DNA from: Halostella pelagica
GTDB taxonomy: Archaea; Halobacteriota; Halobacteria; Halobacteriales; Natronoarchaeaceae
Reading direction: 5' to 3'
Assembly: GCA_005954745.1 (NCBI GenBank)
Contig: CP040678.1
Location: 496,001 to 560,000 of the forward strand
Length of the DNA stretch: 64,000 nt
The position numbers and the translations under genes were made by a program. Below the pieces are notes generated by a model. That model was not told the origin of the DNA. It saw only the letters and a program-made list of their open reading frames with translations, and ran no database searches. This document shows, in pieces, positions 34,971 to 45,922 of this stretch. Each line of letters starts with the position of its first letter. Positions within the stretch are counted from its first letter, which is position 1.

Positions 34971-35044
34971 CCGCCCTTAGCTCAGACTGGTAGAGCAGTC
35001 GACTGTAGATCGACTTGTCCCCCGTTCAAATCGGGGAGGGCGGA
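34971..35044 (+). tRNA. tRNA-Tyr (GTA anticodon), integration target
   Basis: A full cloverleaf can be drawn: acceptor CCGCCCT pairs with AGGGCGG, the anticodon stem GTCGA/TCGAC encloses CTGTAGA with anticodon GTA, and the T-arm is CCCCG-TTCAAAT-CGGGG. The discriminator is A and no CCA is encoded. No intron. An AT-rich box (AATAATAACCCTTAAG, 34925-34940) is a likely promoter. The 3' half is the attachment site of the element that follows. Confidence 0.95.
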
Positions 35045-35047
35045 CTT
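35013..35047. repeat. Left attachment site (attL)
   Basis: 35-bp sequence beginning ACTTGTCCCCCGTTCAAATC and ending GGCGGACTT, covering the T-arm and 3' acceptor strand of tRNA-Tyr plus three bases. Identical to 45444-45478. Confidence 0.93.
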
Positions 35048-35400
35048 CCTAACCCTGCTTTCCAGATTCACAGGATAGCGCCCCGATTCGGCGCTATATC
35101 GCTCCGAAAACGCCTCGGGGTTCACTTGGTCATCAAGTCCAGTCGTAGCCATCTGGTGGTTCATCGTGGCCGAAGAGGGGAACGCGCTTAGACCTTAGCG
35201 TAGTAGATGAGTCGTACTCTACCTCCTGAGGGCTGCTCTCTACAGTCGCAATCTCTTCAGCATTCACTGAGAGGAGCGAGAGGCGCGTAAGAATGAATCT
35301 TCCAGCGTGACCCAGGCCAATCCCCCTCTTTCAGCAGAATTGTCAGAGACACGCGCTCAGTTCCTTCTCATCGAATCAGCTCTCATGACCCTCTCCTGAG
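35048..35400. other. 353-bp region at the left end of the element, no gene found
   Basis: Lies between attL and the stop of the first HEPN-type gene. I see no supported gene. It contains one copy of a 23-bp repeat (35265-35287) that recurs at 39566-39588. Confidence 0.6.
35265..35287. repeat. 23-bp dispersed repeat, copy 1
   Basis: CACTGAGAGGAGCGAGAGGC plus GCG; identical to 39566-39588 inside the same element. Neither copy lies inside a gene I support. Confidence 0.7.
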
Positions 35401-36195
35401 CTATATCTTCCTACCACGGATGTAGTCCTCTACATCCTCTAATAGACGTTCCACATCATTGGGGTCTGGGTCTTCCTCATTTGCGTGGGCGCAGTCTGCT
35501 CGAATATCGGCAAGATGTTGGAGGTGCTTCTCAGGCGTGGAGTCAATCTCATCGGCCTCGTATAATTTCTGAGCCAGAGCCGCAATTCCATCGTTGTAGT
35601 TGTAGCTGATTTCTGCGCTAGCATTCTCGCACTTCATTAAGAGGTATCTCTCTAAAGCGATACCTGCGACCACTCCACTTGCTCTAACCTCTCCCTCCTC
35701 AAAGAGGTCTCTCGCAGTATCAAGCTCACTTTGGGAGACCTCTTCGGATATCTGCCGTCTTACCTTCAGCTCTTCAACTCGAATCTTGGATGGGATTGAC
35801 TGGAGAATACTACGCTGGGAATCAAAATCCGCGTTTTGAGCATTCAGTACCTTTTGAGTATCTGAACGAGCGTCTTTGTCCAACTGAAGTCTCTCTTTGA
35901 ACTCCGAGTAATGTTGCTCAAAGTCCTCTTGGCGATTCGGGAGATAGTCAGAGATGAGAGGGGTGGCTGAATTGTACCAAACCTCGTATTTTTGCAATGC
36001 CTCTCGTTGAAGTCCTTCTAGCTCGTCAGAGGGGGTATCCCAAAATCTACCTCCCACGACTACCATATCCCCAGGTCCGTTAGCCGAATGGGTCCCAATT
36101 CGATTGAAAAAATCCGTATATAATGCTTCAATAGACTCGGCATCATCCTCTAACCGTTCAACTTCTTTCTCAATAGCTTCAACTGGGGCAGCCAT
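35401..36195 (-). CDS. HEPN-like protein with coiled-coil N-terminal half
   Basis: 264 residues from the ATG at 36195 (another ATG at 36204 adds three residues). Residues 1-170 are acidic helices and probable coiled coil. The last 90 residues look like a HEPN domain: SGVVAGIALERYLLMKCENA, then DIRADCAHANEEDPD with the R-x4-H pair (Arg232, His237), and a final helix. HEPN domains with R-x4-6-H are often RNases in toxin-antitoxin and abortive-infection systems, though DUF4145-like HEPNs have less clear roles. Isolated on the minus strand at the element's left end, like typical cargo. Confidence 0.65.
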   Translation of the reverse strand: MAAPVEAIEKEVERLEDDAESIEALYTDFFNRIGTHSANGPGDMVVVGGRFWDTPSDELEGLQREALQKYEVWYNSATPLISDYLPNRQEDFEQHYSEFKERLQLDKDARSDTQKVLNAQNADFDSQRSILQSIPSKIRVEELKVRRQISEEVSQSELDTARDLFEEGEVRASGVVAGIALERYLLMKCENASAEISYNYNDGIAALAQKLYEADEIDSTPEKHLQHLADIRADCAHANEEDPDPNDVERLLEDVEDYIRGRKI

Positions 36196-36377
36196 ATGGT
36201 ACACTCGAAATCATAATCGCTTAGTCTTTTTCTTGACCTGAGCAGCCCAGTCCCATTGACCTATGAATTAGCTCTCTTCGTTTTCCTCAGGCGATTCCAG
36301 AACTATCGAGCAGAAGACGATTGATCGCTATTCAATCGCTTTCTCGCCGCGCTCAGTAGTTTAGAGCAGAGACGGAT

Positions 36378-37730
36378 TCAATCTTCAATCGGTGTGACCG
36401 CTTTTCCATCAAGTGATTCGATTATCTCTTCATGAGATTTTCCACTGTTATTCAATTTCAAGAACTCAGAAAGGGTCCTCCGGGTGATGTCATGAAGATT
36501 CGAGACGAAGTCATGACCGACATCGGTTTGTCCACCATGGACTAAGGTACTTCGTGTACTATACGCTTCTTTGAGTGCTTGTTTGATTTCTTCCGCTTTC
36601 TCTCTCGACTCCCCGAGTAATAGTGCACCTCGCTGAGAGAGTCGGAACGACATTTCCTGTTGTTCCCCGGTCTTCAGATATAACGCTTCCAACGCAATTA
36701 CCGAATCCAACAGTCGGTCATTTTCATTTTGTCTACGGAAGGAGTGGGAGAACTTATCTAAAGCAATACGATAAGTTTCCGGGGGGTCGTCAATTTGCTC
36801 ACTCATTACGGTCCAGAATTCTTTAAACTCTTCACAGTCCTCGGAATCCATCTCGTACCTTGAGCCGAAGAATCGTATGTTTGGCTCCCCTCCGGAGGTT
36901 TCGTTCCCCTTATGGAACGGCGAAATAGGTTCGGTGAATATACGTTGATATCTCACATCTCCATTTCGCTCGAACAATCGAAGGGTCAAGACAACATCTT
37001 GGAACGCGTCTATCGCTTCCTCAGCGCGTAGCTCCGTGAATTTGGGAACCTCATAAGTCTTCTCGATAACATAGACATCTTTCGAATCACCAGTCACCCG
37101 CCGTCTAATCGGGGGACTTAAATTCTCAACCTCGTCCTCGTCGAGGGTGCGAAATATCAGGTCCTCCTCTAGTTCCAATCGGTCTTCCTCCATCCAGAAG
37201 TTGTCCAGAATGGCCTGTGACTGATATTCGACTTCCTCTGCTTTGAGATATTGTTCAAATTCAGCATAAACCTCTTTGAATACATCTTCATTAAAAGAGA
37301 AGTTCCCCTGCTTTTCCAGATACCTTGTGAAAAGCTTAGGAAGAGAATCGTTCTTGATGTGGTCTTCTGGGTCATCCACATCCTCTATGATATCATTCTG
37401 CTTCGCAAGACCCAATTCCTTTTTATATAAATCACTTGACGCAAATGCGCCTGCACAATCGGTGTAATGGGGGAGCTCAGACCATCTTGATTCCATAGAG
37501 TCAGTCAACTTATAGAACATTCCATTATCGACTTCTCTAGGGTGAGCCCTCACAATCCGTTCACCACTATCTGTATGATGGACAATCTCCCTTCCGAACA
37601 TATCCTCCTGCATCATCTCCGCCAAACTTCCAAATATTGCCATCGAAGATTGGAAGTAGGTTTTCAGATTATCATACAGATTCAGGTCCTCAAAATCCCG
37701 CTCTACCTCAGTTTCCTTACTTTCGCTCAT
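36378..37730 (-). CDS. Apea-like HEPN domain protein
   Basis: 450 residues from the ATG at 37730. A large N-terminal region without recognised motifs is followed by a C-terminal HEPN of the Apea type: DRLLDSVIALEALYLKTGEQ, then RLSQRGALLLGES, then AYSTRSTLVHGG with Arg393 and His398 (R-x4-H). This arrangement is common in prokaryotic predicted ribonucleases of defence islands and mobile elements. AT-rich codon use and its place next to another HEPN gene support mobile cargo. No neighbouring antitoxin is evident. Confidence 0.75.
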   Translation of the reverse strand: MSESKETEVERDFEDLNLYDNLKTYFQSSMAIFGSLAEMMQEDMFGREIVHHTDSGERIVRAHPREVDNGMFYKLTDSMESRWSELPHYTDCAGAFASSDLYKKELGLAKQNDIIEDVDDPEDHIKNDSLPKLFTRYLEKQGNFSFNEDVFKEVYAEFEQYLKAEEVEYQSQAILDNFWMEEDRLELEEDLIFRTLDEDEVENLSPPIRRRVTGDSKDVYVIEKTYEVPKFTELRAEEAIDAFQDVVLTLRLFERNGDVRYQRIFTEPISPFHKGNETSGGEPNIRFFGSRYEMDSEDCEEFKEFWTVMSEQIDDPPETYRIALDKFSHSFRRQNENDRLLDSVIALEALYLKTGEQQEMSFRLSQRGALLLGESREKAEEIKQALKEAYSTRSTLVHGGQTDVGHDFVSNLHDITRRTLSEFLKLNNSGKSHEEIIESLDGKAVTPIED

Positions 37731-37819
37731 AGGTGCGAAGAGGACACGCCACCCACATAAATCCTCCCAGCAAAATCTCAAGTTTAGAGAGTTCCAGAAT
37801 ACAATCGAACGATAATCGA

Positions 37820-38461
37820 CTATACTTCTCTATCCTCGACAAAAGCCCTCCACGACTCGAGCGCATCCGCTTTCTGACTCTCCGGGTCATCAAGAACGCC
37901 GACTTCCTTGAGCATCCGGAATATCGTCTTGTCGCGTTTACGAATTTCATCGAGGAGGGCCGCTTCCTTCTCGTGGCTTCCGTGTTCGGTGAAGATAGTC
38001 TCAGTCAGGCCGGAAACGTTCTCGACGTAGTCGCTGGCTTTGCTGACGATGTGGAGTTCGATAGCGATTCGCCGGGTCATCACTCTATCCAGATAATCGA
38101 CGTCTCCCGAGCGCGCTCGAATTCGGTCCTGAATTGAAGCGGCGACATCCCGGACATACTCCTTCTGCTCTCGCGGGAGGGATTGGAAGTAGTGGTGAGG
38201 GTCAGCGTTCAGGGCATGGGTCTGAGCGTTCTGGTTCCCTTTCGGCGCTCCAGCCGAAGCCCCTCCATGGTACTTACAACGCCCTTCACCGAGATGGTCC
38301 GTTCCCTTCCCGGCGGTGGCGTTGCAGTAGCCCGCGAAAACAGTCTCCTCACTCTCGTCGTCTCGCTCGACTTTCTTCCCGTTGCATTGCTCATCTGGCT
38401 CGATTCTCGGAACCTCGTCAGGCTCGTTGCCGAGATACTGCTCTTCTTGCTCGATGGTCAT
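37820..38461 (-). CDS. HGG-motif (terminase-small-subunit-like) protein
   Basis: 213 residues. The motif CKYHGGASAGAPKGNQNAQTHAL matches the C-x-x-H-G-G-x-S-x-G-A-P-K-G-N-x-N-A block seen in small-terminase-like phage proteins and in haloarchaeal viruses, with an upstream Cys in FAGYCNATAGKG that may complete a zinc site. The C-terminal half is helical. Function is unproven; DNA packaging or DNA binding is plausible, and it is the only virus-like gene in the element. Confidence 0.65.
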   Translation of the reverse strand: MTIEQEEQYLGNEPDEVPRIEPDEQCNGKKVERDDESEETVFAGYCNATAGKGTDHLGEGRCKYHGGASAGAPKGNQNAQTHALNADPHHYFQSLPREQKEYVRDVAASIQDRIRARSGDVDYLDRVMTRRIAIELHIVSKASDYVENVSGLTETIFTEHGSHEKEAALLDEIRKRDKTIFRMLKEVGVLDDPESQKADALESWRAFVEDREV

Positions 38462-38613
38462 GGTCTATGGAGTTGATGTATGATGTGAGGGGAGGGCGTC
38501 GGCGTTAGAGCGTTGAGCATTCCTTCCCCACCATTCGGGAGGGGGATGACTACAGGGAATCTACGAATCAAATCGTTTCGACTATTCTCCATCGGAAACA
38601 TCGGGGAACTCCT

Positions 38614-38811
38614 CTACCACCAAATATGCGTATTCCCGACTGGCTTCCCTGAGGGGCGTGGGGATTCATCCAGTAGCTTGAATGCCTCTTCGGTACTGAC
38701 TCCGAGTTCTTCGGCGACTTCCTCGGTCGAGACGGCGGGATTGGTGACGGACTTCTCCATCTTCACGATTGTATCTGCATCCTCGGGCGTCACTTCTTGA
38801 GATTCACTCAT
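38614..38811 (-). CDS. Small acidic protein with HTH-like segment
   Basis: 65 residues from the ATG at 38811. The middle reads NPAVSTEEVAEELGVSTEEAFKLLDE, shaped like a helix-turn-helix (V-S-T-E-E-V-A-E-E-L-G-V-S). It overlaps the stop of the preceding 141-residue gene by 8 nt, so the two are co-translated. Probably a small regulator; no firm family. Confidence 0.6.
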   Translation of the reverse strand: MSESQEVTPEDADTIVKMEKSVTNPAVSTEEVAEELGVSTEEAFKLLDESPRPSGKPVGNTHIWW

Positions 38812-39229
38812 CGTTTCCCCCGTGGTCCCAGCCACCGACCGGAACATCCTCGGGATTAGCGTCTTTGCTGTTCGTCCGATGACCCCCCATGACTTCGAGT
38901 TCTTGCTCCACCGTCAGACCTTCGCGGGATGCCCGAGAAATTTCAGCCGCGCTCATGTCATCATTGAGTCGTGGGTCTCTACCTGGTTCGACTCGTTCTC
39001 GCTCGACCGTCGAGGTATGAGGGGAATCACTCTCGATGAATCCAGACACCGGAATTTCGACTTCCTCCGTCACCGTATTCGGCCCCGACCCTCGGCTGGC
39101 GTTCGTCCGAGATTGGTCTGAGTCGAAGAGTTCCGAAGCGACATCGTCATTGAATCGCTCCTGTAGCACCTTCTCGACCTCTTCACGAACCTTCTGCTTC
39201 ATCGCATCACTGGACATTGCTTTGCTCAT
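38804..39229 (-). CDS. Acidic hypothetical protein of the element
   Basis: 141 residues from the ATG at 39229; an AT-rich TATA-like stretch (TTTAAGTTG on the minus strand near 39250) fits a leaderless start there. MSKAMSSDAMKQKVREEVEKVLQERFNDDV suggests an N-terminal helix; the rest is polar and probably disordered. First gene of a pair with the small HTH-like gene. Function unknown. Confidence 0.6.
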   Translation of the reverse strand: MSKAMSSDAMKQKVREEVEKVLQERFNDDVASELFDSDQSRTNASRGSGPNTVTEEVEIPVSGFIESDSPHTSTVERERVEPGRDPRLNDDMSAAEISRASREGLTVEQELEVMGGHRTNSKDANPEDVPVGGWDHGGNDE

Positions 39230-39322
39230 ACTCAGATATATGGCAAACAACTTAAACAATATTCCGCCGGATATGGCCTCAAACGGGAGGAAGAGGACAC
39301 CTATCTACGATTTGGGACGAAC

Positions 39323-39526
39323 TCAATCCGAGGAAGCTTTCCCTCTCAGACTGTACCTCGCTACCTCCGGCGATTCCGAGAATTCTCCCTCTGTCGATGG
39401 GAGTTCTTCGGGTTCAACGTCTCCTCGGCGCAGATACTCGTTATGCATCCGACTGGAGTGAGTTCGGAGTGGGGTCTCTTCGAGGAAGACCTTCTCACAG
39501 GATGGGCAGGGCCAAATCTCAGCCAT
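39323..39526 (-). CDS. Small C2H2 zinc-finger protein
   Basis: 67 residues from the ATG at 39526: MAEIWPCPSCEKVFLEETPLRTHSSRMHNE holds C-x2-C...H-x5-H with the central Phe and Leu of a C2H2 finger, and an acidic tail follows. The same frame stays open to 39790, but that part crosses a 23-bp repeat and looks non-coding. Single C2H2 fingers are typical of haloarchaeal viruses and plasmids. Confidence 0.65.
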   Translation of the reverse strand: MAEIWPCPSCEKVFLEETPLRTHSSRMHNEYLRRGDVEPEELPSTEGEFSESPEVARYSLRGKASSD

Positions 39527-39565
39527 ATTCGGACCTTCGACTGTGAGGGGGATAAACTGTCTCTG

Positions 39566-39588
39566 CACTGAGAGGAGCGAGAGGCGCG
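39566..39588. repeat. 23-bp dispersed repeat, copy 2
   Basis: Perfect match to 35265-35287. Confidence 0.7.
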
Positions 39589-39815
39589 CTCTAATAGATT
39601 TGTCGAAGAGATGGCCCTTTCCGTTGCCCAAGCCCTTCGATTCACTCTCTGCTTGCCCTCGCAGCGAGAACTGGCGCTGGATGGATTCCGGGGCTGTACT
39701 ATTGGAAACCTCGTTCATTTTGACCACATCTCCCACAGTTTCCCGTGCCATTCCATCGTGCATTTCCGATGAACCAGCCGACGAAATCAAGCGGTTGAGG
39801 TGGATTTCTTCATAT

Positions 39816-39836
39816 ATCCCTACTTGAGTAGGGGAT
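39816..39836. promoter_or_regulatory. Inverted repeat in the divergent control region
   Basis: CCCTAC (39818-39823), TTGA, GTAGGG (39828-39833), with flanking AT and AT that extend the dyad imperfectly. Directly next to a CATATAT box. Candidate operator for the ribbon-helix-helix protein encoded just downstream. Confidence 0.45.
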
Positions 39837-39976
39837 GGCGTGATTCTCTGACCTTCTCGACCAACCTCGATAAATCTGGATACTCACGTCTTCTATTGCG
39901 TACTAACGACTTCTGAGCCAAAGAGTCGAACTTGTGTTCGCCAGCAGTTATGACAGTTCGGAGGTCAATCGAATAT

Positions 39977-40237
39977 ATGGCGAAAGAGCAGACAGAGGTT
40001 ACGACAATCGGCGTTCAGAAAGACACGCATCGAGAACTGAAGGAAGCCAAGCCCGAAGGGGAAACCTGGTCCCGCTTCCTGCAACGAGCGGTCAATTCCC
40101 TCGATTCGGACAAGGCGTTCACGGATGGACAGGAAGAGCGCCTTAACGAACTAATCTCGGAATCAGTCCGGGACGAATTCGAGGAAGAGTGCGAGGAGCT
40201 GGTCGATGAAGCGTTAGACGACTTCCTCGCTAAGTAG
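39977..40237 (+). CDS. Ribbon-helix-helix-like DNA-binding protein
   Basis: 86 residues from the ATG at 39977. EVTTIGVQKDTHRELKEAKPEGETWSRFLQRAV has the strand-helix-turn-helix order of haloarchaeal VapB/RHH-like proteins, followed by an acidic helical tail (DEFEEECEELVDEALDDFL). It could be a plasmid copy-control, partition or repressor protein. It precedes the replication gene by 91 bp on the same strand. Confidence 0.65.
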   Translation: MAKEQTEVTTIGVQKDTHRELKEAKPEGETWSRFLQRAVNSLDSDKAFTDGQEERLNELISESVRDEFEEECEELVDEALDDFLAK

Positions 40238-40312
40238 GTCAGGACGATGAGAGGAATTGTATTCAGGGGCTTGTGGGACCCCCGAACAATGGGTAACGAG
40301 GTCGACGCCGAA

Positions 40313-40317
40313 GGAGG
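40313..40317 (+). promoter_or_regulatory. Shine-Dalgarno GGAGG for the primase-polymerase gene
   Basis: GGAGG lies 11 bp before the ATG at 40329 and selects that start over the in-frame ATG at 40257. Confidence 0.55.
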
Positions 40318-40328
40318 GAACCTTCGAC

Positions 40329-42221
40329 ATGAGAAAATCAGACTCCGACAGAGAAAATAGTTCCGCGCCGGAAACAGTCGAAAGCGTCCCTAAGGAACTC
40401 GTAGGGCGTGATATCTGGATTTGCTGGCGATTTGAGCAGGGAGGGAATAAGAAGCCTCCATTTGACCCAGATACAGGTGAGAGAGCTTCGGTTCAGGAGC
40501 CTAATACTTGGTCTGACTTCGAGACGGCTCTCGCCCGATACGAGGGGGGAAACTACGATGGCGTTGGATTGGTCCTAACTGAGAACGGGCCTATAACGGG
40601 CTTCGATTTCGATGACTGCCGAGACCCAGAGACGGGAGAAATCGAGCCAGAAGTCGAGGATATCATCGAACGCCTCGATTCCTACTCCGAGATATCCCCC
40701 TCCGGAACAGGTATCCATACGCTCATCATCGGAGAGAAGCCGGAGGAGTATGGGAGTAAGGGAGGTGAATATATCGAGGTCTACGACTCCGATCGATATT
40801 TCACCGTCACTGAAGACCATCTCGATGGAACGCCGGAATCCATCGAATCCCGCGAGGATGAACTCCAGAGGGTTTGCGAGGTCTATCTAAACAAGACATC
40901 TTGTGCGGAGGTTGAGGAGGTTGATACTCCAGATATCGACGCCGATGATGGTCTCATCGAGATAGGGGAGAACGCCCTTCATGAACTACAGGAGGAATCC
41001 ACACCAGTATTCAGCGACGTGATGGACTTCCTGCAAGGGGGTATCTCCAAGTTCGATAGAGCAGAATTGCTCAAAGAGGATGGTCTGATTGACGTTAGCG
41101 GTCAGGAATACATCGGAATCTCCCTCCTCTACTCGACGGTGGAGCGATACTGCGATGAATCCGAATCGAAGGTCAGGGAGATAGTTTGGGCTACCTGGAC
41201 TCACTACTGCCGAGAACATCCGGTTACGAGACATAGCCAGAAACGACGATGGCTGACGGATACTGACAAATACAGGTCTGAAATCTTCAATCACGCAATC
41301 TCGATGGCCGACGGGGAGAAGTTCGAGATGATGGTCGAGGAGAAGGGGAAGGAGACACGCCGAGAGAACAACGAATACTCGAAAATGACCTACGATGCGA
41401 TTTGGGATGCGCTCTCTGAGCAGACTCCCTCTCCTCAGGAAGTAGAGAACCTACTCGCCGCTTCCCCCCAACTGTATAATGATATGGACCCAGAGAATCC
41501 GCAGACGAAGTCGAGGATTCCTGACGGTCACGCGAGCGAAAATCCAGAGGTTCACGAACTGTATCCGAGCAAGGAGGAAATCGTCGACCGTGCGGTTGAA
41601 ATTGATAATGGATACAACGAGTGGGCTACTTACGAAGAGGCACTTCGCAGACTTCAATCCGAATATGGTCAGGTCAAGGCGGCGAGGATAGGTTCCTCAA
41701 CGTGGGTCTACTATGCTGTTGGTCACCCTGACCCTCCTGAGGCATCCTACGTCTTACTCGAAGGGGAGCAAATGGAGCCAGAGAAACCGTATCTCTTGCA
41801 GTCCTTCGATGAGCAAATAGAATCCGAGGGGGATTCCGAGCCGGAGATTATGACCGATGGAGGAGTGAACACGGAGGTTCCCGAAGCGAAGCAAGACCTC
41901 GAACGAATTCGGAAAGCCCGCGAAGGTAGCGAGGAAATGACCGAATCCCCCGAGACCTTCACTTGCCCCATCGAGGGATGCTCTCGAACTGTCATCGGCT
42001 CCCCCGATGCTCTCCGGAGTCATGTCCGGCAATCCGGCGAGGAGAGCCATCGCCATAGACGGCTGAATGACGCGCTTAAAATCGGATTTGATGAGGAGGG
42101 ATATCACGCGGAGTGGGGGCCACAACTCCCTGAGGATGGTGATGAGGGGCGAGAATCGATATATGAGCCAGATGACCTGTGGAGGCCCGGAGTTCCAGAG
42201 AGTGAGGTGAACCAATCATGA
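40329..42221 (+). CDS. Primase-polymerase-like replication protein with C-terminal C2H2 finger
   Basis: 630 residues. The N-terminal 170 residues look like an archaeo-eukaryotic primase/PrimPol domain of plasmid and phage type: IWICWRFEQGGNKKPPFDP, motif I GFDFDDC (Asp93, Asp95), motif II SPSGTGIH (His130), and motif III region EVYDSDRYFTVTE. The middle (residues 210-520) is helical with no Walker A, so no fused helicase. Near residues 544-580 a zinc finger CPIEGC...H...H is present. It is the only replication gene of the element and is coupled to the HNH gene by an ATGA overlap. Confidence 0.75.
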   Translation: MRKSDSDRENSSAPETVESVPKELVGRDIWICWRFEQGGNKKPPFDPDTGERASVQEPNTWSDFETALARYEGGNYDGVGLVLTENGPITGFDFDDCRDPETGEIEPEVEDIIERLDSYSEISPSGTGIHTLIIGEKPEEYGSKGGEYIEVYDSDRYFTVTEDHLDGTPESIESREDELQRVCEVYLNKTSCAEVEEVDTPDIDADDGLIEIGENALHELQEESTPVFSDVMDFLQGGISKFDRAELLKEDGLIDVSGQEYIGISLLYSTVERYCDESESKVREIVWATWTHYCREHPVTRHSQKRRWLTDTDKYRSEIFNHAISMADGEKFEMMVEEKGKETRRENNEYSKMTYDAIWDALSEQTPSPQEVENLLAASPQLYNDMDPENPQTKSRIPDGHASENPEVHELYPSKEEIVDRAVEIDNGYNEWATYEEALRRLQSEYGQVKAARIGSSTWVYYAVGHPDPPEASYVLLEGEQMEPEKPYLLQSFDEQIESEGDSEPEIMTDGGVNTEVPEAKQDLERIRKAREGSEEMTESPETFTCPIEGCSRTVIGSPDALRSHVRQSGEESHRHRRLNDALKIGFDEEGYHAEWGPQLPEDGDEGRESIYEPDDLWRPGVPESEVNQS

Positions 42222-42739
42222 GTACGACCGACGACCAAGATTCAGATGCACCATGGCGAGATGAGGAAACGCTCCGACGAATGTACTGGGAGGAAGGTAT
42301 GTCCTCGCAGGATATCGGTGATGAGTTGGGATGCTCCTATGGGGCTGTCCTCCGTTGGATGGACAAGCATGATATCCCTCGTCGGGACCGACTCGAAGCC
42401 TCTCATCTCGCTGGTGGCCTTGAGGCGGCCCAAGAAGCGAGGAGAGTCCCGTGGGTTCCCTATACCATCTCAAGCGGCTATGAGATTTGGCGAGACTCTA
42501 AGACTGGGAATGATGTGAGCGTCCACCAGCTCCTCGCAATCGCTAACGGAACTGACCCTCACGAGGTTTTCAGGGAGGGAACTGTGGCCCATCATCGGAG
42601 TGGTCATCGGCGGGATAATCGCCCCGAGAATATCGAGGTAATGGGGCGAGGAGAACATACCAAGGCCCACATGGCCGACGAATGGACCGAGGAGGATGGC
42701 TTCCCTGTGCTGGTCAATCCCCGCGATGAGCAGACGTAA
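42218..42739 (+). CDS. HNH endonuclease with N-terminal helix-turn-helix
   Basis: 173 residues. Residues 14-55 form an HTH (LRRMYWEEGMSSQDIGDELGCSYGAVLRWMDKH), and the C-terminal half is an HNH nuclease: VHQLLAIANGTDPHEVF, then VAHHRSGHRRDNRPENIEVM, with the H-H...N-R-P-E-N-I core and a final H in GEHTKAHM. The layout matches phage-type homing or packaging-associated HNH nucleases. Starts inside the stop of the primase-polymerase gene (ATGA). Confidence 0.85.
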   Translation: MSTTDDQDSDAPWRDEETLRRMYWEEGMSSQDIGDELGCSYGAVLRWMDKHDIPRRDRLEASHLAGGLEAAQEARRVPWVPYTISSGYEIWRDSKTGNDVSVHQLLAIANGTDPHEVFREGTVAHHRSGHRRDNRPENIEVMGRGEHTKAHMADEWTEEDGFPVLVNPRDEQT

Positions 42740-42835
42740 TCGGGACTGACTAACCTATCATCCATCTAACTTTCCTGTACGACCAATCTGAGGAAACAGG
42801 TTCCTCATACTGCAATACCACGTCGCTGAACCTGT

Positions 42836-43282
42836 ATGCCATCGAAGAACCATGCAGATGGCGGAGAAGAACGAGATACCTGGAATGAGGATACCCCCTA
42901 TAGCCTTTCAGTAGAGGGGTCTACCGAACTCCTTGGCGCCCCGCTCGAAATGGTCGGCTTCTGCTGGACAGAGGAACATGGAGAGAGCTACGAGGTGGAG
43001 TGCCCGTACTGTAACGGGGAACTACACCATCATAATGCCTCCAACCACCATCGGCTCGCATTAGGTGGGATTAGTCCAGCGAGGTGTAAGGCGTCCGGAG
43101 AGCGCTACTATCTGGTATTGGTTCCGGATACAGCGAGACTCCCGTATGAGGTAATTCATCGAGCCCGGCAGGAATTAACCAACCTACCTGGTGATGAACT
43201 GCAACAACCTCTAGTACCGAAGGGGATTGACCCTCGGGTAGTTGATGACCTACTTTCCTACTGGACGGACGGAATCTTCTAG
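42836..43282 (+). CDS. Small zinc-binding protein of the element
   Basis: 148 residues. One C-x2-C (VECPYCNGELHHHNASNHH) with several nearby His and a later Cys (SPARCKASG) suggest a zinc site. The C-terminal third is helical. No family recognised. It is the third gene of the rightward unit after the replication and HNH genes. Confidence 0.6.
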   Translation: MPSKNHADGGEERDTWNEDTPYSLSVEGSTELLGAPLEMVGFCWTEEHGESYEVECPYCNGELHHHNASNHHRLALGGISPARCKASGERYYLVLVPDTARLPYEVIHRARQELTNLPGDELQQPLVPKGIDPRVVDDLLSYWTDGIF

Positions 43283-43449
43283 AAACCATAGAATCCACTC
43301 AGCGCCATCCTCTGCGGCGCTATCATGTATTCGATGATTCCCGTTGCCAGCGGGAGAATGTCGCCTCTGAGTGGCGAGGAGAAGCGAGAAGAGCGGATAG
43401 ATTAGTTCGAGGGGTTATCGAGTTCTATATTCCTTACCCGACTTCGAAT

Positions 43450-44277
43450 CTATTCGGAGTCACCCATTCGTAATATTTCCGAGATAGGCGTGACCGTTGG
43501 AGCGAGAAATGCCATTCCAATGTTAAGCTTCTCAGATAGCATTACTACCCCCACAATTGCTTCATCCATCCTCTCTAAAATAGTCTCAAATTCTCTCCCA
43601 AACTGAACCATCCCCAATTTATGGACTACCTCACCTCTGAACGTTCGATTCCGTGCCAGAGACTCTCGTAGTTCTGGGGAAATAATCTCTGTCCTCTCAA
43701 GAAACATCTCTCGTTCCTGCTGGTGAATTTGGTCAACAAGTTTTGCGACTGCTTTCGAGCCTTCTCGCTCCTCATCAAACGTCTGGACGACTAGGTGCTT
43801 AGTAGGTAGTTCGATAAATTCACTAAATAGGGTGAAAAATAGCACAATATCATCACTAAGCAGGTTAGTTATCATCACCTGTTTGGATTTGTCCCACTGA
43901 TTATCAGTTAACCTAATCTCATTCATCCGTTCCTTCTCTAATTCCTCCTGATTGGGTACAGGGTGTAGTAATATCTCCTTGTCGTCAAATTTGGAGAAGT
44001 ACTCTTTCAGGCGGGTATGTTTTTGAATTACCTCCTCTCGTAGGATGGCTAATTCGGTAGGGACATGTATCTGCATTATATCGTCCCCCGCTTGCTCTAT
44101 CCCTGGTTCATACTCCTCTCCATAAGCCACGACAGAGATTTGCTGGTGGATATGGCGAGTTCTTTCTGACCAACCCATCGATTTCATAGGCGTCGCAACT
44201 GACTCTCCTTCTGGCAAATCTACAACATCTATTGCACCATTTATTATTTCATACAGGCTATACTCATTCCTCGTCAT
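43450..44277 (-). CDS. Possible third HEPN-motif protein
   Basis: 275 residues of AT-rich codon use. Mostly helical; residues 205-225 read SLARNRTFRGEVVHKLGMVQ, which contains Arg214 and His219 in R-x4-H spacing followed by a further helix, as in HEPN domains. A hydrophobic stretch (LLSDDIVLFFTLFSEFI) precedes it. The HEPN reading is weaker than for the two left-end proteins. Located between the rightward unit and the integrase, a usual cargo slot. Confidence 0.5.
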   Translation of the reverse strand: MTRNEYSLYEIINGAIDVVDLPEGESVATPMKSMGWSERTRHIHQQISVVAYGEEYEPGIEQAGDDIMQIHVPTELAILREEVIQKHTRLKEYFSKFDDKEILLHPVPNQEELEKERMNEIRLTDNQWDKSKQVMITNLLSDDIVLFFTLFSEFIELPTKHLVVQTFDEEREGSKAVAKLVDQIHQQEREMFLERTEIISPELRESLARNRTFRGEVVHKLGMVQFGREFETILERMDEAIVGVVMLSEKLNIGMAFLAPTVTPISEILRMGDSE

Positions 44278-44376
44278 ACCTCAACAGTGTGAAGCCATGA
44301 TTGAAATATGTCGTAGAAATCAGGCCGCTCTATTTCCCCGAGAAAATAAGTCTCCTCCCGAAAACCGAGTTAGGAA

Positions 44377-45393
44377 CTATATCCCGTCGAGGTAACCACG
44401 CCTCTGTTCGACTTTCACCTCCTCAGTTCTCCGGTCGTAGTGCTTATCCAGAACATCTTGCCCCACATCCATCCGGTCGGAGACGACCTTCTCGGGAACG
44501 TCCTCGGTCAGGAAGTGAGTGATGGCCCCTCTCCGGATTGAGTGGGGACTGACGCTCGATGGGCACTTGCTACGATATCCGTACTTCGTCGCCTCGCAGT
44601 CCCGTTCTCTCCGGTCATGTGGGCAATGGTCGCCGTAGTAGCAGGGGCGAGTGACGGTATAGACTCTCTCGCGCATGGTCGATATCGTCAGTCGGCCTTG
44701 CTCCGAAGCGAAGAGGGGTTCTCGGTCGTTCTCATCAGTGACCTCGGGGCGATTGTGGTCAATCCAGTCTTCGAGAACTTCGCAGAGATACTGGCTCAGA
44801 GCGACCATCCGCTCCCCCTCGGATTTGTTCTTGAGAGGTGTCTCGGAATCTGGTCGATGGGTGAGACTGAGACGTTGCTCCTCGGAATCGAAGTCCTCGA
44901 TATCCAGTGAATAGACCGCTCCGATTCGGAGTCCAGTATGCCAGAGAAGTTCGACCAGCGTATGGGAGCGAGAGGCATACTCAAATCGGCGGAGATATTC
45001 CAGCACGTCCTCGGCCTGTCCGGAGCGAAGCGTCTCCTCTCGGCGCTCCTCCTCGTTCGATGGCGTCGGGAGGAGAATCTTCTCGTGAAGCCCCTCCTCG
45101 ACTGCATCGATGGATTCGCACCACTTGATGAAGACTCGAAGCGATTTCAGTTGCGTCCGGAGGCTGACCTTGTTTAGGTCCCCATCCTCCTTACGCCAGA
45201 GCCGGAACTTATGGAGAGTCCGACCATCGAGTTCGTTCAGATTGTCGAGTCCGTTATCCTCGGCCCAGCGAATGAGATGCCGGAGTCGATAATCGTCTGC
45301 CTGTACCGTCCGTTCTGAGACTTGTCCACGCCGGTCGGCCAAGAACATCTCCTTGGCTTCCGAGGGCGTGAGGGGTTCGAGTTCCTTCGTCAT
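44377..45393 (-). CDS. int: Tyrosine recombinase (integrase) of the element
   Basis: 338 residues. N-terminal SAM-like core-binding domain (TVQADDYRLRHLIRWAEDNGL), then the catalytic residues Arg156 (HTGLRIGAVYSLDIED), Lys in KNKSEGER, His284-x2-Arg287 (SPHSIRRGAITHFL) and the nucleophile Tyr319 (LDKHYDRRTEE). Four Cys between residues 251 and 277 form a probable zinc-binding insert. Complete, not split by integration. It lies 50 bp inside the right attachment repeat and presumably acts on the tRNA-Tyr site. Confidence 0.93.
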   Translation of the reverse strand: MTKELEPLTPSEAKEMFLADRRGQVSERTVQADDYRLRHLIRWAEDNGLDNLNELDGRTLHKFRLWRKEDGDLNKVSLRTQLKSLRVFIKWCESIDAVEEGLHEKILLPTPSNEEERREETLRSGQAEDVLEYLRRFEYASRSHTLVELLWHTGLRIGAVYSLDIEDFDSEEQRLSLTHRPDSETPLKNKSEGERMVALSQYLCEVLEDWIDHNRPEVTDENDREPLFASEQGRLTISTMRERVYTVTRPCYYGDHCPHDRRERDCEATKYGYRSKCPSSVSPHSIRRGAITHFLTEDVPEKVVSDRMDVGQDVLDKHYDRRTEEVKVEQRRGYLDGI

Positions 45394-45443
45394 GATTTCC
45401 TCGAACCACCAGAAAGCGTGAGGATTGTCCCTTTATTTCAGAT

Positions 45444-45478
45444 ACTTGTCCCCCGTTCAAATCGGGGAGGGCGGACTT
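45444..45478. repeat. Right attachment site (attR)
   Basis: Perfect 35-bp copy of the tRNA-Tyr 3' end, marking the far junction. Sequence beyond it is again GC-rich. Confidence 0.93.
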
Positions 45479-45479
45479 T

Positions 45480-45760
45480 TCCTGCGAACATCGTGAGCAG
45501 TGAAAACTCTCTCCCGAGCCGATCTGAAGCAAGCACCGCGAGACGTGGCTCCCCGTCGAGATATTCTTCGCCCTTCCCGGTGATCTCGTAGTGACGCCAG
45601 TCTTGGGAGACGGGAGCGACGAGACCGGCCCGAGAGAGCGGGATACAGCGTTCTTTCACCCGTCTCTGCGAGGCGCACAGTGAAGCCTCATTGGTGATGT
45701 GGGAGGGCGTCGCCGTTCTTCTGCGCGGAGGAACTCCAGCGTAAGATCGTTGAGGACAGA
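45480..45760 (-). pseudogene. Remnant of a winged-helix (PhiH1-repressor-like) gene
   Basis: On the minus strand LTLEFLRAE appears in one frame and ITNEASLCASQRRVKERC...LSRAGLVAPVSQDWRHYEITGKGEEYLDGE in another. Joined, they make the familiar haloarchaeal winged helix (D-x-x-L-E-F-L...L-x-x-A-G-L-V...Y-x-I-T-x-x-G-x-x-Y-L). The break near 45700 indicates a frameshift, and no start codon is evident. Its reading frame runs on into the attachment repeat. Probably chromosomal debris beside an integration hot spot. Confidence 0.55.
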
Positions 45761-45922
45761 TCCGCAACAGCAACCGAACTCCGTTCTGTAAGACGCCGAC
45801 TTTGAAGCCGCGTCTCCCAATCGTATACGAGGGATCGATGTACTGCTTGTCGACGAGGACCGACGAACGGCGAGTGCGGACCGCCGATAGTTACCGATTA
45901 CTGGCCAGACGGCCTCGCTCCA

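Follow-up and report, generated by a model that had tools for sequence, protein, structure and literature searches.

The 10.5-kb element integrated in the tRNA-Tyr gene of Halostella pelagica (positions 35013-45478 of the window, by which the whole 64,000-nucleotide stretch analysed here is meant: contig CP040678.1, 496,001 to 560,000) is probably an integrated satellite of head-tailed haloarchaeal viruses, working like a bacterial phage-inducible chromosomal island (PICI). The element was found to carry a gene for a terminase small subunit (TerS), and its DNA would be packaged by this TerS together with the terminase large subunit (TerL) and the capsid of a helper virus. The original prediction had named a satellite or cryptic plasmid relying on a helper, or an unknown virus family. 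The satellite is now strongly favoured, because a solitary TerS is kept under purifying selection across a family of elements in which no TerL or structural genes were found; a dependence on a helper is presumed.

Terminase small subunit and ends of the element

The open reading frame (ORF) at 37820-38461 on the minus strand, encoding 213 aa, matched phrog_9231, annotated as 'terminase small subunit', with an E-value of 8.2e-28. In a tblastn search it matched the TerS of Halogranum tailed virus 1 (HGTV-1; 33%, 1e-19) and of HATV-3 (34%, 1e-6), and in both viruses the annotated TerS sits with TerL and portal. The TerS alignments showed invariant residues C26, C46, C62 and H65 and a GAPxGNxN stretch. 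The element had been described as free of recognisable virion genes. This no longer applies to TerS, but it stood for TerL, portal, capsid and tail.

No TerL, portal, capsid or tail family was observed when 95 element proteins were scanned against PHROGs at 1e-5 (25 of the 39 families listed), nor when 76 of these proteins were scanned at 1e-3 (all 20 families). TerS was the only head-and-packaging family in both scans, among the families listed. One of the 76 proteins matched 'virion RNA polymerase' at 4.5e-4, which was taken as a chance match. Assignment to the head-tailed proviruses was considered and rejected, as the TerL, portal and major capsid protein that define the class were not found in the scans. 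With hidden Markov models (HMMs), TerL was found in none of 11 family elements. Among 50 IMG/VR contigs with a TerS homolog, 38 carried TerL in the stretch examined.

TerS was found to be under strong purifying selection. The ratio of nonsynonymous to synonymous substitution rates (dN/dS) was 0.02-0.09 for six pairs among the window element (E1) and its relatives in G130 (E2), Halosimplex aquaticum (E6) and G149 (E7), and 0.04-0.07 for the window TerS versus E2, E6 and E7. The integrase gave 0.03-0.16 among three tRNA-Tyr elements; among close pairs, the family F4 protein gave 0.16-0.21 and the small winged-helix protein 0.14-0.58. TerS is among the most tightly held genes of those compared. 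In a tree of 43 TerS sequences (12 from the family and 31 others) the family fell on one side of a branch with a support of 93/97, and its TerS grouped together in 92% of 200 bootstrap trees.

The ends of the element are exact. The tRNA-Tyr(GTA) at 34971-35045 on the plus strand, the sole tRNA of the window by ARAGORN, is the integration target. An exact 35-nt repeat, ACTTGTCCCCCGTTCAAATCGGGGAGGGCGGACTT, is present on the plus strand at 35013-35047 (attL) and 45444-45478 (attR). The attL copy runs from past the anticodon to two bases beyond the tRNA and restores its 3' part. By our own arithmetic, the chance expectation of exact 35-mer pairs in 13 kb is far below 1e-10. The GC content is 0.514 within the element and 0.650 in the flanks. 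The SNJ2-like tyrosine integrase gene (44377-45393, minus strand; PF00589, 1.8e-16) is an open frame without stops, 50 bp from the distal repeat. The predicted borders, the intact integrase beside attR and the internal drop in GC were thus all borne out. A 20-bp block, TACGCTAAGGTCTAAGCGCG on the minus strand (35183-35202), was found by k-mer comparison and alignment of element ends. It is common to five of the eight delimited elements of the family, in tRNA-Tyr and tRNA-Phe alike, lies about equally far from the att site on the tRNA side, and may be an arm site for the integrase or another site acting in cis.

The element family and its movement between genera

A TerS search gave matches in 14 of 146 related genomes, and a five-row TerS profile matched 38 of the 392 genomes of the order at 1e-10. 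Strong matches, with E-values of at most 4e-59 and far above the rest, were observed in 11 of the 392 (G000, G032, G066, G075, G082, G130, G149, G202, G308, G370 and G385), which come from six family codes. A scan of GTDB genomes added H. aquaticum (99.5-100%) and Salinadaptatus halalkaliphilus (65%). Eight elements of 3.7-12.7 kb could be delimited. They are located in tRNA-Tyr (window, 10.5 kb; G130, 3.7 kb; H. aquaticum, 8.2 kb), tRNA-Phe (G082, 10.1 kb; G032, 8.5 kb; G075, 10.0 kb; G149, 12.5 kb) or tRNA-Val (G308, 12.7 kb), and the end repeats of the seven relatives measure 27, 24, 23, 24, 39, 22 and 38 bp. Other members are incomplete: the G202 element is apparently split over two contig ends, those of G370 and G385 are partial, G066 has a fragment next to tRNA-Tyr, and in S. 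halalkaliphilus the copy is found where a contig starts.

The core was determined by HMM in 11 elements, the eight delimited ones and the partial ones of G202, G370 and G385. TerS and F5 were present in all 11 and F4 in ten, being missing from the 3.7-kb form; the integrase was present in all eight delimited elements. F5 is a small winged-helix protein of 77 aa (38614-38847, minus strand in the window). F4 (38804-39259, minus strand) has 151 aa with repeated E-I-P-V-x-G-like stretches. It had no match in PHROGs, and a member of its family had none in phage records. From the repeated short stretches and the place beside TerS, an interaction role for F4 can be speculated. A winged-helix search matched 14 of the 392 genomes, ten of them TerS hosts (all but G066); the other four are G062, which has a remnant, and G102, G324 and G359, whose matches are weak.

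The remainder of the elements is variable. The replication side holds a PrimPol-type protein in the window, G082 and H. aquaticum and other long proteins in G075, G370 and others, and the cargo includes HEPN-like proteins (window, G130), Schlafen AlbA (H. aquaticum) and, in G308, a type IIG restriction-modification protein with a TATA-binding protein and a ParB-like protein. The type IIG gene lies beside the TATA-binding protein gene both in G308 (L131:9236-12723) and in G370 (L129:16366-19853), at 97% DNA identity; in these elements a transcription factor gene is satellite cargo. The 3.7-kb element E2 has lost PrimPol and the whole replication operon and has kept integrase, F5 and TerS. At L015:8309-9325 of G130 an internal deletion fuses the integrase in frame to the end of F4, and the DKHYD context is kept.

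The elements of the window, G130 and H. aquaticum are all integrated in the same tRNA-Tyr gene by ftsZ. Their long common segments are 92-95% identical (86-97% with pieces below 300 bp included); the left flanks are mostly 75-78% identical (short pieces 69-84%) and ftsZ about 85%. The G149 element, in tRNA-Phe, has the same core as the window element at 89% and a different integrase: between E1 and E7, TerS is 96% and the integrase 59% identical at the protein level. Judged from these identities, the element family has moved between genera, and integrases have been exchanged between elements with the same core. The original prediction was to fall if no related elements occurred at this locus; two were found there, together with the G066 remnant.

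In all four congeners examined (G001-G004) the zinc-ribbon - tRNA-Tyr side with ftsZ is kept and the element TerS is absent. A clean joined empty site was not seen, as the congener DNA past the tRNA had no direct match to the right flank of the window. In G003 and G004, about 4.6-5 kb separates the tRNA from the arylsulfotransferase gene, which in the window follows the element. Since the flanks do not match directly and the locus past tRNA-Tyr varies among congeners, it looks like an integration hotspot with remnants. Just outside attR, at 45438-45773, an ORF was observed with a 'RHYEITGKGEEYLDGE' stretch, presumably similar to winged-helix proteins encoded in other elements of haloarchaea. 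When further copies were sought at the DNA level, 271 of the 392 genomes matched at E<=0.01, mostly through the integrase, and nothing usable as CRISPR evidence was obtained. Against plasmids, the first 7,988 bases of the element matched only in short pieces, at 60-80% and within the PrimPol gene.

A head-tailed provirus that has decayed, losing its structural genes and keeping TerS by accident, is a decidedly unlikely origin for the element. Viruses and proviruses that look complete, such as G170:C11 and a provirus of 51 kb in G380, have homologous TerS proteins, and decayed copies of the family do exist, such as the G066 fragment and the G385 TerS with a stop. However, the same core is present in 11 elements, nearly all with open TerS frames, and independent decay would not leave one common F4-F5-TerS block. 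The low dN/dS of TerS, the separation of the family clade from virus TerS and the recent transfer between genera also speak against decay.

Proposed packaging and the search for a helper

For a satellite, the following course can be proposed. Infection by a tailed virus, or induction, would lead to excision of the element by the SNJ2-like integrase, perhaps aided by the small winged-helix protein. The excised element would replicate from PrimPol or another replication module. TerS would then recognise the element's own DNA and recruit the TerL and procapsid of the helper, and the DNA packaged in helper particles would be delivered to new cells and integrate at a tRNA. The HEPN-like, Schlafen-like, type IIG restriction-modification and other cargo may pay the host by defence against other viruses.

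Candidate helpers were sought through their TerL. An HMM of 12 TerLs gave a match above 200 bits in only one of the 11 family hosts, G032, with the TerL far from the element; most genomes gave 27-42 bits, read as background helicases. The TerL type of the G170 virus (L122-type) escapes this model; it was searched for separately and found in 27 of the 392 genomes, including the hosts G149, G308 and G385, with a fragment in G202. In G149 this TerL belongs to a provirus about 150 kb from the element, which also has a TerS-like ORF of an unrelated type and, as judged by reading, portal and capsid-like genes. Next to the TerL of G308 and of G385 no portal was noticed. At these loci (G308, L189:10062-13257; G385, L190:7751-11313) TerL lies beside a Cdc6/Orc1-like ATPase, identified by eye, and small ORFs; this TerL subtype, with a split C-terminal match, recurs beyond the two genomes.

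The 43.9-kb contig G170:C11 (L155-L157) has a 95-bp end overlap and encodes TerS, TerL, portal-like and capsid-like proteins, and is apparently a complete tailed haloarchaeal virus. Its TerS, about 39% identical to the family, is among the nearest outside it. Its TerL and the TerL of the G149 provirus are 60% identical, so a single TerL type is paired with a family-like TerS in one case and with an unrelated TerS in the other. This would suit terminase diversion and is not proof of it. Fifteen haloarchaeal TerS loci outside the family (L020-L027 and L122-L128, about 18-20 kb each) were also examined, and TerL was found within the stretch in nine; at L123 it lies at the opposite end of the 51-kb provirus that holds the TerS. 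A second TerL model, built from longest frames, had mixed in portal-like sequences, and only its L122 and L021 matches were used. At one of these loci, in G086 (L022:5963-10287), genes for a Walker A protein of 1065 aa and a TerS homolog come after a tRNA-Ser, and no TerL was found in 20 kb; this is possibly a separate TerS-bearing element, for which no repeat was detected.

Several results weigh against a satellite. No helper, induction, excision, circle or particle was observed, and no packaging site was identified. The window genome gave no TerL by phrog_2, by the L122-type TerL or, above background, by the 12-row profile, and any helper would therefore have to infect. The helper-type TerL is found in three of the 11 family hosts versus 24 of the 381 other genomes, in plain counts. 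At five of the 15 outside loci (L022, L023, L025, L125 and L126) no TerL was found. The IMG/VR scan with TerS gave no close family member (best long match 37%) and that with the integrase alignment no relative, so no virome contig shows a packaged copy. The fold model of TerS was poor (mean pLDDT 66.6) and Foldseek found no PDB match at E<=0.001; the fold was not used as evidence. Finally, TerS is not universal in the integrase lineage, to judge from two elements with integrase relatives in which no TerS, F4 or F5 was detected: an 8.8-kb element in tRNA-Phe of G101 (L227:5013-13819), which has HEPN-like cargo in common with the window, and one in tRNA-Tyr of G005 (L146:740-5537).

These relatives, and the lack of an identified helper or packaging site, would also fit a plasmid of integrative type whose TerS-like protein, once captured, now serves as regulator or replication protein instead of in packaging, and which is transferred by mating, vesicles or transformation. 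PrimPol and the divergent regulators are plasmid-like, and TerS proteins bind DNA. The plasmid is nevertheless an unlikely explanation. TerS keeps the conserved cysteine, histidine and GAPxGNxN residues, and with F4 and F5 it still forms a block resembling an operon. Moreover, since E2 retains TerS after losing its whole replication operon, TerS is not needed with PrimPol.

Remaining genes and comparison with known systems

Read from the integrase end, the window element encodes the integrase, a 275-aa protein and a leftward operon of zinc protein, HNH endonuclease, PrimPol and small regulator, followed by a divergent rightward operon, extending to the tRNA, of zinc-finger-like protein, F4, F5, TerS and two cargo proteins of HEPN-like type. 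The predicted replication gene, a PrimPol of 654 aa (40257-42221, plus strand; phrog_13901, 1.5e-43), was recovered. It holds the stretches DFDD, SGTGIH and YDSDRYFTVT, which we take to be PrimPol motifs, and neither a Walker A nor another helicase motif was found in it. It is preceded by a ribbon-helix-helix-like regulator (39932-40237, plus strand, start perhaps 39980; weak VAPB_antitox, 0.0057; phrog_18289, 3.3e-4), which is kept in E6 and E7 and is encoded by the first gene of the divergent replication operon. PrimPol is followed on the plus strand by an HNH endonuclease with an N-terminal HTH (helix-turn-helix; 42218-42739; phrog_7545, 1.8e-32) and a zinc-ribbon-like protein of 148 aa (42836-43282), recognised from its ORF and cysteine pattern, with no family above the cut-off. 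On the minus strand, the family F8 protein (39323-39790) is C2H2 zinc-finger-like (PF13894, E=0.0099, below the cut-off) and has related ORFs in E6 and E7.

Almost no cargo protein had a Pfam match above the cut-off. The 267-aa HEPN-like protein (35401-36204, minus strand; PF05168, only E=0.08), possibly a defence protein, is 97% identical in G130 and 77% in the G101 element. A 467-aa cargo protein (36378-37781, minus strand; phrog_28161, E=7.7e-5) appears by eye to be HEPN-like in its C-terminal part, and the 275-aa cargo protein (43450-44277, minus strand) is weakly HepT-like (PF20797, E=0.016, below the cut-off).

The integrase has a conserved cysteine cluster and, by alignment, the catalytic tyrosine context DKHYD. 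It is nearest to the integrases of SNJ2 (45%) and HHPV4 (44%), and size and integration habit are similar to those of Humcor2. A pleolipovirus of SNJ2 type or its satellite, leaving the cell in membrane vesicles, is nonetheless highly improbable. No spike, internal membrane protein or pleolipovirus ATPase was among the PHROG families listed, only the integrase is common to both, and integrases swap between elements with the same core. We also know of no place for a terminase subunit in vesicle-like virions.

On balance, and with modest confidence, we regard the family as the first of tailed-virus satellites in Archaea: a halovirus TerS would have been captured once and spread through many Halobacteria by diverting the TerL of helpers, with integrases, replication modules and defence cargo swapped, and F4 would be a further helper-interfering protein. 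Piracy of tailed-phage particles by satellites is described in many bacteria, and the archaeal virus satellites named in the sections consulted of PMC11389934 are fuselloviral. If the proposal is true, terminase-diverting piracy arose separately in both prokaryotic domains and is a general route to satellite life, and the haloarchaeal TerS family would help to explain the movement of defence genes among haloarchaea. The predictions can be tested, as some of the haloarchaeal hosts and of the tailed haloviruses are culturable. A TerS without TerL next to an integrase can serve as a search rule for more satellites.

Among known systems, HGTV-1, HATV-3 and tailed viruses or proviruses such as G170:C11 and G013 share a homologous TerS (33-39% identity for the nearest), but they have TerL as well, and also portal and capsid-like genes where the sequence was read, and their TerS falls outside the family clade. 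SNJ2 and related pleolipoviruses are alike in integrase (about 45% identity), tRNA integration and a size of 10-17 kb, and differ in carrying spike, membrane and ATPase genes and no terminase, by the annotation of Humcor2. The 11.9-kb element E9 in tRNA-Val of G092 (L026, 3368-15284) resembles the window element in integrase (47%), TerS (27%), size and the absence of any portal or capsid gene noticed; unlike it, E9 encodes a TerL and neither F4 nor F5. It is possibly a second kind of satellite.

The satellites pSSVx and pSSVi depend on a fusellovirus helper, are not known to use terminase-based packaging and carry genes not known to be related to those of the window element. They are alike in being archaeal satellites of a helper virus (PMC11389934, PMC4158269, in the parts consulted). 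In the same parts of these two sources, archaeal virus satellites are given only for fuselloviruses, with one proposed fusellovirus-like satellite. No account of terminase-carrying haloarchaeal satellites was found in the open-access literature searched.

The closest likeness in function is to PICIs, including the Staphylococcus aureus pathogenicity islands (SaPIs), whose traits are taken in part from sections of PMC11389934 and PMC8989297. Shared traits are the size class, a terminal integrase, operons for replication and for packaging that diverge, a TerS unaccompanied by TerL or structural genes, cargo for defence and strains without a resident helper, the last also known from satellites of E. 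coli in the part of PMC11389934 consulted. The family has integrated elements of the ~8-15 kb class with integrase and att repeats (range 3.7-12.7 kb, one member being smaller), a TerS gene of predicted activity with no own TerL, portal, capsid or tail found, and an own replication module (PrimPol) with small DNA-binding regulators, the module being absent from E2. Unlike PICIs, it has archaeal hosts, a TerS of a halovirus family, an SNJ2-like integrase, PrimPol and F4/F5. Its proteins match halovirus families or none. The comparison is one of trait descriptions, and the likeness to PICIs is claimed for function and not for descent.

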